From the NCBI RefSeq assembly GCF_000384965.1, contig NZ_CM001844.1, forward strand, positions 1,560,668 to 1,624,667: a stretch of DNA of 64,000 nucleotides, written 5' to 3'. This stretch comes from Bartonella bovis 91-4 (GTDB lineage Bacteria; Pseudomonadota; Alphaproteobacteria; Rhizobiales; Rhizobiaceae). Positions 22,227 through 63,294 of the stretch are shown here, one piece after another. Numbering within the stretch: the first letter of the stretch is position 1; each line of letters opens with the position of its first letter. The notes beneath the pieces were generated by a model. That model worked only from the letters and a program-made list of their open reading frames with translations. It ran no database searches and had not been told where the DNA came from. The translations under genes and the position numbers were made by a program.

Positions 22227-22301
22227 GCGGGTGTAGCTCAGGGGTAGAGCACAACCTTGCCAAGGTTGGGGTCGTGGGTTCGAATCCCATCGCCCGCTCC
22301 A
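22227..22301 (+). tRNA. tRNA-Gly (GCC), CCA encoded
   Basis: Cloverleaf read by eye. Acceptor GCGGGTG pairs with CGCCCGC, and a D-arm with GGGGTAGAGC follows. The anticodon stem is CAACC/GGTTG with loop TTGCCAA and anticodon GCC at 22259-22261. The T-arm holds GGTTCGAATCC, the discriminator is T, and the encoded CCA is at 22299-22301. It is 75 nt including CCA and stands alone between long spacers. Confidence 0.97.
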
Positions 22302-28069: not shown

Positions 28070-28672
28070 ATGCCGAAAAAAATCATGGAAAATAAACAGC
28101 CTCAAAATATTCCAATAACACAAATAAAAAACCAGCTACTATCACATCTTAACCAAAAAGCACTTGTATTTGTTGGTCTCATGGGTTCAGGAAAATCCGT
28201 TATTGGAAAACATGTCGCCACTATGCTCAATTTACCATTTTATGATTCCGATCAAGAAGTCGAAAAAGCTGCGCAAATGACAATTACCCAATTATTTGAA
28301 ATGTATGGTGAATCAAAATTTCGCGCTCTTGAACAGCAAGTTATTCTAAATATCATCAAAAAAGGTCCTCTTATTTTGGCGACAGGTGGGGGTGCTTATA
28401 TGAACGAAGACATCCGAAAAGCTATTCATCAAAATGGTATATCCATATGGCTTAAAGCAGATCTTCACGTTCTCATAAAGCGCATTTTATGGGGGGGTGC
28501 GAGACCATTGCTTCAAACAGCAAATCCTAAAGAAACGATGCAAAAACTCATGGAACAGCGCTACCCTATTTATGCACAAGCAAACTTAACAATTAATAAC
28601 CATGCAGAATATTGTCATATAGTAGCACACAATGTGATACGGTCTGTACAACGCTATTTGTCCACGAAATAA
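28070..28672 (+). CDS. aroK: Shikimate kinase
   Basis: Phosphorylates shikimate at the 3-hydroxyl with ATP. It has 200 residues. Walker A is GLMGSGKS (residues ~36-43), followed by YDSDQEVE (Mg/shikimate Asp), FRALEQQV with the shikimate-binding Arg, and ATGGGAYM. A ~30-residue N-terminal extension precedes the fold; the ATG at codon 6 is an alternative start. It lies 17 bp ahead of aroB and is divergent from xerD, the normal Rhizobiales arrangement. Confidence 0.95.
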
Positions 28673-28689
28673 CGATAAAGATAAAAAGC

Positions 28690-29823
28690 ATGCAAACCAA
28701 AATCGTTACTGTTAAACTGAACAAACACTGTTATGATGTTGTTATTGGCTCAGGTTTGATTGCACAAGCAGCTTTAAAGATTAAGCATTATTTGCATCAA
28801 AAGAGTTCTTATCAAACACGTTTAGCTATCGTTACAGATAAAAATGTCGCTGCTTTTCATTTAGACACATTGCAGGCAAAATTAGCAGAAAATAAAATCT
28901 GTATTATCCCTATTATCGTAGAAGCAGGAGAACAATCAAAATCGTTCTCAATTTTGCAAAATGTGATCGATAAAATTCTTGCTGCTCGTTTAGAAAGAGG
29001 CGATAGCATTATTGCTTTTGGAGGTGGTGTCATTGGTGATCTTGCAGGATTTGCTGCAAGCATTATACGCCGAGGTATGCATTTTATTCAAATGCCTACA
29101 ACACTTCTAGCACAAATTGATTCATCTGTTGGTGGAAAAACTGGAATCAATAGTCTTTATGGCAAGAATCTCATTGGTACCTTTTATCAACCCCAATGCG
29201 TTATTGCTGACACTGATGTCCTTAATACATTACCTTCACGTGAATTTCGCGCAGGTTATGCAGAAATGGCTAAATATGGCCTCATTAATCAACCTCATTT
29301 TTTTGAATGGCTTGAAAAAAACTGGCAAAAAGTCTTTTCTACGGGTCCAATACAAATAGAAGCCATTGCCCGCTCATGTCAATTTAAGGCTGATATTATA
29401 GTTCACGATGAATATGAAACGGGCCAACGTGCATTACTAAACCTTGGTCATACATTTGGACATATGCTTGAAACAGCAACCGCTTATGATTCAAACCGTT
29501 TAATCCATGGTGAAGCTGTAGCTATTGGAATAATTTTAGCCCACCAATTTTCTGAACAATTAAATTTAATCAGCCCCACAGTGACGCAACGTATTGAAAC
29601 ACATTTTAAAACCGTTGGTTTACCAACACAATTACAAGATATCCCTGGCAAACTTCCAAATGCTGAAACACTTATGACCTTTATTACCCAAGATAAAAAA
29701 GTTTCGCAAAATAATTTAACCTTTATCCTAACACGCGCACTAGGCCAATCATTTATCGCTAAAAATGTTTCACCAAATGCAGTCTTGACCTTTCTGGAAC
29801 AAAAATTAGTGAAAACTGATTAA
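28690..29823 (+). CDS. aroB: 3-dehydroquinate synthase
   Basis: Converts DAHP to 3-dehydroquinate with NAD and a metal. It has 377 residues from the ATG at 28690; an open frame back to 28612 overlaps aroK and is not needed. The NAD site is [29 protein letters not shown] follows, with [12 protein letters not shown] and HGEAVAIGI supplying metal-ligand His residues. It probably forms an operon with aroK. The tRNA-Arg gene starts 60 bp downstream. Confidence 0.96.
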
Positions 29824-29882: not shown

Positions 29883-30194
29883 GTCTGCGTAGCTCAGTAG
29901 GATAGAGCACAGGATTCCTAAATGAATTGGGCGCTTTGAGGAGAAATCCTTGAAGTGGATCTGCTCAAATTCGGGGAAAGCTTCACAGGAGACTGTATGC
30001 CAATCCCGAGCCAAGCCTGTTTTAAAGGAAACAAGGAAGGTGTAGAGACTGAACGGGTAGCACCTAAAAAGTGTATCCTTCAAGGTGAAGAGACAGTCCA
30101 GACCACAAACAGCTTACAATAACGAAGACTGGCGATGAAAATCGAAGTGGTATGAATCCTGGGGTCGTGGGTTCGAATCCCGCCGTAGACACCA
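29883..30194 (+). tRNA. tRNA-Arg (CCU) interrupted by a group I intron
   Basis: The two exons, 29883-29919 and 30155-30194, make a 77-nt tRNA. Acceptor GTCTGCG pairs with CGTAGAC. The anticodon stem CAGGA/TCCTG closes the loop TTCCTAA once the insert is removed. The anticodon CCT is at 29917-29919, the T-arm has GGTTCGAATCC, the discriminator is A and the encoded CCA is at 30192-30194. The split lies directly after anticodon base 36. TATACT at 29850-29855 is a plausible -10 box. Ordinary tRNA scans may miss it because of the 235-nt insert. Confidence 0.95.
29920..30154 (+). ncRNA. Self-splicing group I intron, subgroup IC3 (Azoarcus-like), no ORF
   Basis: A 235-nt insert that follows U36 of the tRNA and ends in G (omega-G), as group I rules require. 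The guide GGG at 29929-29931 can pair with anticodon CCU, giving the short P1 with a G-U at the splice site, like the 3-bp P1 of the Azoarcus tRNA-Ile intron. Conserved core elements match that intron: CAAATTCGG at 29966-29974, CCGAGCCAAGC at 30006-30016, the P7/R element GGTGTAGAGACTGAACGG at 30039-30056 and the S element GGTGAAG...AGTCC at 30084-30099 (GACT pairs with AGTC). It encodes no homing endonuclease; minus-strand frames across it are chance. Confidence 0.93.
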
Positions 30195-30237: not shown

Positions 30238-30642
30238 ATGAAAAAAACTCTATTTATTTTAGGACTTTTTGCTTTAGGAGCTTTTGTTATTTTTTGTTTC
30301 TTGTTCAGTAAAACCAACATCTTTTCTAGCTCTTTGGTCATTGAAGTACCAAGCAATTCAAACCCCACTAAAGAGACAATTGCCTATCAATGTGGCACAC
30401 AAACCAATAAAGAGCGCATTGAAGTTACTTATCTTAATGCTGGTAATATTTCATTAGTCGATTTCACATGGAAAGATGAACGCATTGTTGGAGCAAATGT
30501 AATCTCAGCTTCAGGTTCAAAATATGCGGGAGCCCAATATATTTGGTGGACAACTAAAAATGAAGCCACACTTTATGACCTTATTAATGACCCTAATGAG
30601 GAAAAACCTATTATGTGTGAAGAAGAAAGAAACACAAAATAA
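30238..30642 (+). CDS. MliC-like membrane-anchored lysozyme inhibitor family protein
   Basis: A 134-residue protein with an N-terminal hydrophobic anchor (residues ~4-25) and a small beta-rich domain. The pattern YQCG, VTYLNAG, the SASGSKY motif, then QYIWWTTKNEATLYDL and a late Cys (IMCEE) fits the MliC/PliC domain that blocks C-type lysozyme; the two Cys would form its disulfide. The hydrophobic segment contains a Cys but not a proper lipobox, so I predict a membrane-anchored or secreted form rather than a lipoprotein. It starts 44 bp after the tRNA-Arg, with AGAAGGAAAG ahead of the ATG. Function is inferred from the fold motif only. Confidence 0.75.
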   Translation: MKKTLFILGLFALGAFVIFCFLFSKTNIFSSSLVIEVPSNSNPTKETIAYQCGTQTNKERIEVTYLNAGNISLVDFTWKDERIVGANVISASGSKYAGAQYIWWTTKNEATLYDLINDPNEEKPIMCEEERNTK

Positions 30643-60688: not shown

Positions 60689-61996
60689 TTATTTACCAAC
60701 ACAAAATTGTGAAAAAATAACATCAAGTAAATCTTCAACATCAATGTCACCTGTAATTCGTCCAAGTGTATCACTCGCACGACGAAGATGTTCTGCACGT
60801 AAACTTAAATCAAGAGAAACATGATTTATTGCAGTATCAATTTCTTTAACAGTTTCTTTTAATAATTGGAGTTGTCTTTTTTGTGCTGAAACAACATTAC
60901 CAATTTCAGCAATACGACGCAGACAAAATGATTCTATCTCTTTTATAAGATGATCAAAATTTAAACCACTTAACGCTGAAAATTGTATAGACCAACGTTC
61001 TTTATCCCCTTGATAAAGATCAAGTTTATTACCAACACGCCATACTTCAGCCGATGTTTTTGGTAAATGAATTTCTTGAGGATTGTTCATATCATCAACC
61101 AAAATAACTAAATCAGCATCTATAACGTGTTGTTTTGCAGTTTCGATACCTAATTGTTCAATTTTACTTTCTGTTTTTCTAAAACCAGCAGTATCTGTTA
61201 AAAAAACTGGTAAACCGCCAAGTATTAATCTAATTTCCAAAGCATCACGTGTTGTTCCTGCTTCTTGCGTTACAATAGCAACAGGTCTTCCAGCTAGACG
61301 ATTAATAATACTTGATTTTCCAGAATTTGGAGCACCTACAATAACAACTTTTAACCCATCACGTAAAATATTTGCGCGTTCTCCTGCACAAATATGTTCA
61401 CAAAGCGAATAACTAAGCTTTTTTATATTTTTCCAAATTTCATCAGATATACAGTCTGGAATATCATCTTCATCAGAAAAATCAATTTCCGCTTCTATTA
61501 AAGCACGTGCTGTTATAAGTTCATCACGCCAATTACGATATAACTTTGTTAAGTGTCCACTTGCACCTATAACAGCTAAACGTCTTTGACTTTCTGTTTC
61601 TGCTTCTATTAAATCAGCAAGAGCTTCTGCTTGAATTAAATCTATCTTTCCTTCAGCAAACGCTCTACGAGAAAATTCACCCGCCTCAGCAATGCGGCAC
61701 TCGGGAAATGTGGATAATTCATCTAAAAAACGATTAACAACTGCCTTACCCCCATGTAAATGGAATTCCGCACAATCCTCACCTGTAAAACTATGAGGAC
61801 CAGGAAAGAAAACAGTTAAAGCAGAATCTAAAAAGCTACCATCACGTGCAATAAGATTCCCATAATGCATAAATCGTGCTTTAGGTAAACAACCACAAAG
61901 CGTTTTAACAATGTTTACAACATGAGGACCAGAAAGTCGAATAACTGCAACCCCCGAAGGTAACAATCCACTTGAAAGCGCAAAGATTGTATCCAC
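60689..61996 (-). CDS. mnmE: tRNA modification GTPase MnmE
   Basis: The GTPase partner of MnmG. It has 435 residues. The N-terminal folate-binding domain has FALSSGLLPSGVAVIRLSGP and CAEFHLHGGKAVV. The inserted G domain has GAPNSGKSSIINRLA, DTAGFRKTE and NKLD. The C-terminal CxGK motif reads FCVGK and carries the catalytic Cys. It sits 32 bp after rho. Confidence 0.97.
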   Translation of the reverse strand: MDTIFALSSGLLPSGVAVIRLSGPHVVNIVKTLCGCLPKARFMHYGNLIARDGSFLDSALTVFFPGPHSFTGEDCAEFHLHGGKAVVNRFLDELSTFPECRIAEAGEFSRRAFAEGKIDLIQAEALADLIEAETESQRRLAVIGASGHLTKLYRNWRDELITARALIEAEIDFSDEDDIPDCISDEIWKNIKKLSYSLCEHICAGERANILRDGLKVVIVGAPNSGKSSIINRLAGRPVAIVTQEAGTTRDALEIRLILGGLPVFLTDTAGFRKTESKIEQLGIETAKQHVIDADLVILVDDMNNPQEIHLPKTSAEVWRVGNKLDLYQGDKERWSIQFSALSGLNFDHLIKEIESFCLRRIAEIGNVVSAQKRQLQLLKETVKEIDTAINHVSLDLSLRAEHLRRASDTLGRITGDIDVEDLLDVIFSQFCVGK

Positions 61997-62028
61997 AGGA
62001 CTAATCCTAACTTAAAACTATGATGTTT

Positions 62029-63294
62029 CTAAGTATTCATTGAATCAAAAAATTCACTGTTATTTTTTGTCTGTTTTAATTTATCAATTAAAAACTCAAT
62101 TGCATCTGTTACATTCATAGGTGCTAAAATACGACGAAGTACAAAAATCTTATGTAAGTCTTGACGAGCCACTAAAAGATCTTCTTTACGTGTTCCTGAT
62201 TTTAGAACATCCATAGCTGGAAAAATACGTTTATCCGCAACTTTACGATCAAGAACAATTTCTGAATTACCTGTTCCTTTAAATTCTTCAAAAATAACCT
62301 CATCCATACGACTACCTGTATCAATCAAAGCCGTTGCGATAATAGTTAAAGATCCACCTTCTTCAATATTACGTGCTGCACCAAAAAAACGTTTAGGACG
62401 TTGTAAAGCGTTAGCATCGACACCACCTGTTAAAACTTTACCTGATGAAGGAACAACTGTATTATATGCACGTCCAAGACGTGTAATTGAATCAAGAAGG
62501 ATAACAACATCACGTCCATATTCAACTAAACGTTTAGCTTTTTCAATAACCATTTCAGCTACTTGTACATGACGTATTGCTGGTTCATCAAAGGTAGAAG
62601 AGATTACCTCTCCCGTTACAGAACGCTGCATATCAGTTACTTCTTCTGGACGCTCATCAATTAAAAGAACAATGAGATAACATTCAGGATGATTAGTCGT
62701 AATAGAATGAGCAATATTTTGTAATAAAACCGTTTTTCCTGTTCGAGGAGGTGCTACAATTAATCCTCGCTGACCTTTTCCTAGTGGGGATATTAAATCA
62801 ACAACCCGTGATGACATATCCTTATTTGTAGAATCTTGTATTTCCATTTGGAAACGTTCATTTGAATAAAGAGGTGTCAGATTATCAAAGTGAATTTTGT
62901 AGCGAATTTTCTCAGGATCTTCAAAATTAATCGTATTAATCTTTAGAAGAGCAAAATAACGTTCTCCCTCCTTTGGACCACGAATAGGACCTTCAACCGT
63001 ATCTCCTGTTTTTAAAGAGAAAGATTGAATCTGTGCAGGAGAAAGATAAATGTCATCGGGCCCTGGAAGATAATTAGCATCAGCAGATCGCAAGAATCCA
63101 AATCCATCTTGTAAAACTTCAACGACACCTTCCCCAATAATCTCCACATCTTGTAAAGCGAGTTTTTTCAAAATGGCAAACATTAACTCTTGTTTGCGCA
63201 TCAATGAAGCATTTTCAACTTCTAATGTTTCAGCAAAAGTAACAAGTTCAACTGGATTTTTACTTTTGAGTTCCTGTAGTTTCATTTCTTGCAT
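62029..63294 (-). CDS. rho: Transcription termination factor Rho
   Basis: A hexameric RNA helicase that ends transcription. It has 421 residues, a normal length. The N-terminal helical part precedes an OB fold with [19 protein letters not shown] (RNA primary site). The ATPase domain has [17 protein letters not shown] (Walker A), [16 protein letters not shown] (Walker B) and the Q-loop and R-loop stretch near [19 protein letters not shown]. ATGs at codons 1 and 4 are both possible starts. It is the first gene of the cluster and is transcribed away from the candidate origin. Confidence 0.98.

Follow-up and report, generated by a model that had tools for sequence, protein, structure and literature searches.

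A group I intron interrupts the only tRNA-Arg(CCU) gene found in Bartonella bovis 91-4 and occurs in every Bartonella genome searched

How does a bacterium obtain tRNA-Arg(CCU) when the only gene found for it is interrupted directly after the anticodon? We addressed this question in a window of Bartonella bovis 91-4, meaning the whole stretch of 64,000 nucleotides that was analysed. The gene occupies positions 29883-30194 of the + strand and measures 77 nt once joined. It consists of a 37-nt 5' exon ending with U36 of the anticodon (29883-29919), a 235-nt group I intron with a terminal G at 30154 (29920-30154), and a 40-nt 3' exon in which the CCA is encoded (30155-30194). When introns were allowed (0-3000 and 200-260 nt), ARAGORN reported tRNA-Arg(cct) with an intron length of 235 and the junction 'ttcct-Intron-aatcc', the same boundaries as in the original prediction of two tRNA halves joining around an insert after U36, and the exons retained a full cloverleaf. 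Without introns, ARAGORN missed the split tRNA-Arg(CCU), and the sole tRNA in the 64-kb window was then a glycine tRNA (22227-22301). According to its paper, tRNAscan-SE 2.0 was likewise not built for the detection of group I introns (PMC8450103). The find is chiefly an annotation correction, in that ARAGORN without the intron option loses this tRNA.

An RF00005 search of the genome returned 39 tRNAs, a list from which the split gene was absent. The intact tRNA-Arg genes among them were Arg(ACG), Arg(CCG), and Arg(UCU). The anticodons of the 39 tRNAs did not include an intact CCU copy for arginine, which the original prediction had named as part of a possible refutation. In addition, the 5'-half pattern of the CCU gene occurred once genome-wide, at the split gene. 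Because the only tRNA-Arg(CCU) found in the genome is split, production of the CCU tRNA requires splicing. The AGG codon is also decoded by tRNA-Arg(UCU) through wobble and may be readable by this route here; in ten hand-picked window ORFs, AGG accounted for 4 of 171 Arg codons. The earlier claim that the cell needs splicing to read AGG, unless another tRNA covers this codon, was softened by the presence of tRNA-Arg(UCU) and the rarity of AGG.

The identity of the insert was assessed with the curated covariance model for group I introns. RF00028 matched positions 29910-30112 at 58.6 bits, above its gathering score of 50 (E 2.6e-12 in the 64-kb window), and in the whole genome (1,624,667 bases) the intron was the single match at E <= 0.001 (E 1.6e-14). 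This match is not due to chance. The insert further showed the P3-P7 core and a guide that pairs to form P1, and its last base is G. No ORF of at least 80 aa overlapped the 235-nt insert in the window ORF list, and an insert of 235 nt is too short to hold a usual homing endonuclease. The core, the guide, the final G, and the lack of an endonuclease had all been predicted from the letters of the DNA and were borne out here, as was the covariance-model match on which the prediction was to be checked. As in the BbgpI-type family of alphaproteobacterial tRNA-Arg(CCU) introns, insertion is after U36 (ARAGORN), and homology to other introns at the same site, that of G063 included, was seen in an alignment of 77 introns and in the tree. 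The alignment comprised the window's own intron and its relatives, with 58 Bartonella and 19 non-Bartonella rows; the boundaries of 75 relatives were set by exon patterns and those of G534 by hand.

The alignment also revealed a conserved fold, in which the helix names are our own assignment by general group I anatomy. The internal guide GGG (29929-29931) pairs with CCU at 29917-29919 as C-G, C-G, and U-G in 77/77 rows. The P2 hairpin (29932-29957; GAAA loop 29943-29946) showed two-sided changes in the alignment. The 5' strand of P7 lies at 30047-30051 (partner 30094-30098) and is invariant in 77/77 rows, and that of P3 lies at 29961-29966 (partner 30055-30060), where all six pairs are standard in 77/77 rows with few changes. 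The P9 region (30103-30150) contains a hairpin at 30133-30144 with a GAAA loop at 30137-30140. All of these elements are on the + strand. In the RNAalifold consensus of the 77 introns, 70 pairs were formed and 97.3% of cells were paired, with two-sided changes in 33 of the 70 pairs (495 such cells), figures that are biased towards the structure since it was derived from the same alignment used to score it. When the partners were slid by 1-2 columns as a control, 50-64% of cells were paired and two-sided changes fell in 13-18 of the 70 pairs. Covariation support came from P2, P5, P6, P8, and P9; P1, P4, P7, and the exon pairs showed no variation across the 77 rows. The nested RNAalifold fold placed a nearly invariant pairing (29960-29964/30042-30046) in place of P3, which crosses P7 and thus cannot show in a nested fold; P3 is accordingly allowed by the alignment rather than demonstrated by covariation.

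From these features, we proposed that the insert is almost certainly a group I ribozyme that is functional and separates positions 36 and 37 in the only tRNA-Arg(CCU) found in the genome. In the precursor, CCU would pair with the GGG guide of the intron to form P1; guanosine would then attack after U36 in the first of two chemical steps, and the freed exon would attack after the terminal G, yielding the 77-nt tRNA-Arg(CCU). Others have shown splicing in B. bacilliformis, in vivo and in vitro; for the species of this window it is inferred.

The distribution of the intron in the genus was uniform. The 5' half of the split gene was found in 71/71 Bartonella genomes, and each match continued into the intron and not into an intact anticodon stem; the search would also have caught an intact gene, with two mismatches. 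Complete introns with the 3' exon were obtained from 58 of the 71 genomes and ranged from 220 to 278 nt, the introns of the remaining 13 lying outside the extracted set. Of 37 same-genus genomes tested with RF00028, that of the window among them, 36 had a match at E <= 0.001, with 31 above the cut-off and 5 below it (39.4-48 bits). In G032, the 37th, the intron match scored 53.0 bits and the 3' exon had more than three differences from the 3' exon pattern. The gene's surroundings were also largely shared. Upstream lies an ORF (28612-29823, +) that we take, from its sequence, to be aroB (3-dehydroquinate synthase), and downstream a small putative ORF with a signal-like start (30238-30642, +), both from the ORF list. 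By tblastn, aroB matched near the gene in 62 of 82 rows, namely 54/58 Bartonella, 7/19 other split, and 1/5 intact rows. It was not beside the gene in four Bartonella rows (G003, G016, G030, and G032), two of which (G016 and G032) gave no genome-wide aroB match; the downstream ORF, which matched in 45/82 rows, all Bartonella, was still present in G016, G030, and G032.

We then compared the intron with the host through an rpoB tree of 55 chosen, non-random genomes (48 split and 7 intact; G547 was omitted for want of an rpoB match, and the rows of G006 and G472 were partial). The 30 Bartonella formed one clade (100/98). The clade beside it (98/97) held the split G583, G489, G469, G568, and G470 together with the intact G531, and the split G550 and G534 fell outside both; presence or absence of the intron took 6 changes on this tree of chosen genomes. 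Intron and rpoB distances were correlated among the 30 Bartonella (r 0.905), the inner 24 (r 0.644), the 18 others (r 0.829), and all 48 rows (r 0.847), each with 0/2000 permutations, and among the 11 split rows not on the tree's Bartonella side (r 0.706; 2/2000), counts that are no strict probabilities because tree distances are non-independent. In the intron tree itself, Bartonella did not form a single group (3 changes; 1 change in 5% of bootstrap trees); the long-branched G550 and G534 were placed among Bartonella with low support (84/77), and the window's pair (G000 and G024) grouped with different Bartonella subgroups in the intron tree (90/78) and in the rpoB tree (80/87). Presence in 71/71 genomes, distances congruent with rpoB, and the adjoining aroB together support vertical retention, in agreement with the long retention originally predicted. 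On these comparisons, the intron very probably predates the common ancestor of Bartonella and has passed down vertically.

In the near relative G531 (L132), the tRNA-Arg(CCU) gene is intact; it has the same stem and, like the gene of the window, follows an aroB ORF. If its placement (92/88) holds, the simplest reading is that G531 is a candidate for precise intron loss; independent gains may explain the pattern instead. An endonuclease-free group I intron in every Bartonella genome searched, with many relatives intact, raises the question of what keeps it. One answer would be that the intron is no neutral passenger, and that either the RNA once excised or splicing itself is useful to Bartonella, for example by setting the supply of a rare-codon tRNA. 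Its usefulness would then be the cause of its fixation before the genus and of its presence in all 71 species-level genomes searched despite the intact gene at the same place in G531; we regard this proposal as unlikely.

Outside the genus, the distribution was sporadic. Among 161 family genomes (two of them Bartonella), 144 matched the 5' half at no more than two mismatches and 17 were unmatched; by reading of the match list, 21 of the 144 were split and 123 intact. All 19 non-Bartonella split genes gave a full intron. In the order's other families, none of the 24 genomes searched had an RF00028 match under strict filters. The anticodon stem was CAGGA in 20 of the 21 split genes, the remaining one being UAGGA (G534), and in just 7 of the 123 intact genes (Fisher p 1e-17, without correction for kinship). 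In genus g150, G473 is split and G570 is intact, and the intact tRNA-Arg(CCU) has a different anticodon stem. Among the matches listed, 119 stretches had the same 22-base intron core, of which 85 were from Alphaproteobacteria, 16 from Actinomycetes, 1 from Gammaproteobacteria, and 17 unclassified. ARAGORN labelled 47 of these listed stretches Arg(cct), 19 of the 47 being from named Bartonella, and 14 Leu(taa); it gave no label to 6 and other labels to 52. Labels of the Phe(gaa) type look like boundary slides of tRNA-Leu, as in L223, which was labelled 'Phe' yet shares 95.4% identity with a plasmid tRNA-Leu-like element across 307 nt; we relied on the Arg(cct) count alone, owing to such doubtful labels.

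These patterns bear on a history of repeated horizontal transfer of the intron into Bartonella lineages. To judge by its title, a 1999 study on the tRNA-Arg(CCU) introns of alpha-purple bacteria proposed horizontal transfer for the wider group. The sporadic occurrence in the family, with g150 holding both states, is in keeping with such a history, as are the Actinomycete and Gammaproteobacterial cores among the matches listed and the association of split genes with the CAGGA stem, which exon-intron co-conversion could explain. Within Bartonella, however, presence is uniform and aroB adjoins the gene in nearly all rows, and intron distances track rpoB even in the 11 split rows off the Bartonella side. 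We therefore consider repeated entry into Bartonella improbable, and vertical inheritance remains our preferred reading. A decayed intron in a tRNA-Arg(CCU) pseudogene, which the cell could bear if tRNA-Arg(UCU) decoded AGG through wobble, is a reading that fits the presence of tRNA-Arg(UCU), the rarity of AGG, and the five same-genus introns under the RF00028 cut-off, but is scarcely credible given the invariant P1, P4, P7, and exon pairs in 77 rows, the covariation of other helices, the full cloverleaf kept by the exons, the lack of any loss in 71 genomes, and the splicing of the B. bacilliformis orthologue (PMC7717549).

A related element (loci L080 and L328) was observed on plasmids. In a distant search, the window intron had matches of 60-80% identity in 1,266 of 72,556 plasmid records, each of them to less than 80% of the query. 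The copy on pCTX-M3 (L080 2940-3250; NC_004464.2 about 61815-62125) fell short of the RF00028 cut-off (36.8 bits compared with 50; E 1e-7 when 701 bases were searched). It adjoins aac(3)-IId and is flanked by two parts readable as a tRNA-Leu(UAA) gene, joined by eye and not by a tool. With this element as a 311-nt query, matches covering at least 80% of it occurred in 1,257 of 72,556 plasmid records and in 624 of 5,426 complete E. coli genomes; when matches of any length were counted, the totals were 1,280 and 635. No annotated feature lay under it in the 6 E. coli genome rows and 5 plasmid rows inspected, the plasmid table being without RNA genes. On one E. coli plasmid, the neighbour was an incomplete 'tunicamycin resistance protein', the stretch shown had no aac(3), and the element had no RNA annotation. 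Among the 119 listed stretches, which had been picked by an intron pattern, the nearest chromosomal matches were alphaproteobacterial (Enterovirga and Devosia, both with 95.4% identity across 307 nt), and they suggest without proving an alphaproteobacterial origin of the plasmid tRNA-Leu-like element. L223, L327, L212, L300, and L211 (Hyphomicrobiales and Sphingomonadales) each shared 92.8-95.4% identity with the plasmid element across about 305 nt; the tRNA-Leu-like element may itself be mobile, as far as alphaproteobacterial copies each compared with the plasmid copy, and not mutually, can indicate. In L300 and L211, the match extended upstream beyond the tRNA part by as much as about 165 nt, and a second copy of 40 nt of the element's 5' part lay about 190 nt away in L223, L211, L300, and L231. 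On a Tritonibacter mobilis plasmid (L081 1400-1725), a tRNA-Thr(UGU)-like gene seems, when read by eye, to be interrupted by a similar insert. Our search of the literature found no report of a group I intron in tRNA-Leu on plasmids with aminoglycoside resistance. An intron relative on resistance plasmids, under which the records inspected have no annotated feature, may interest more widely.

Among known systems, the Azoarcus tRNA-Ile intron is a small intron of subgroup IC3 in the anticodon loop. It presumably resembles the window intron in the GAAA loops of P2 and P9; the host genes differ, being tRNA-Ile in Azoarcus and tRNA-Arg(CCU) here, and the RF00028 match carries no subgroup assignment. 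Azoarcus and IC3 are both named in PMC3984707. The closest known system is BbgpI, a group I intron in an unannotated tRNA-Arg(CCU) gene of B. bacilliformis for which a 2020 paper reports splicing in vivo as well as self-splicing in vitro; the paper traces its family to Agrobacterium tumefaciens (PMC7717549). In G063, the gene coincides to about 2 nt with the published BbgpI locus (c42404-42711), which marks G063 as B. bacilliformis. BbgpI and the window intron share the same tRNA, the CCT at the junction, the genus, and an unannotated host gene, and according to that paper the introns of A. tumefaciens and other alphaproteobacteria cited there belong to the same tRNA and family. BbgpI and the window intron differ in species, in sequence, and in length (230 nt in G063 compared with 235 nt), and splicing was demonstrated for BbgpI and is deduced for the window intron. 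Thus, a split tRNA-Arg(CCU) with a group I intron is already known in Bartonella through the B. bacilliformis orthologue; what is added here is the detail of a genus- and family-wide survey, in which these introns were sporadic in the family sample and uniform in Bartonella.
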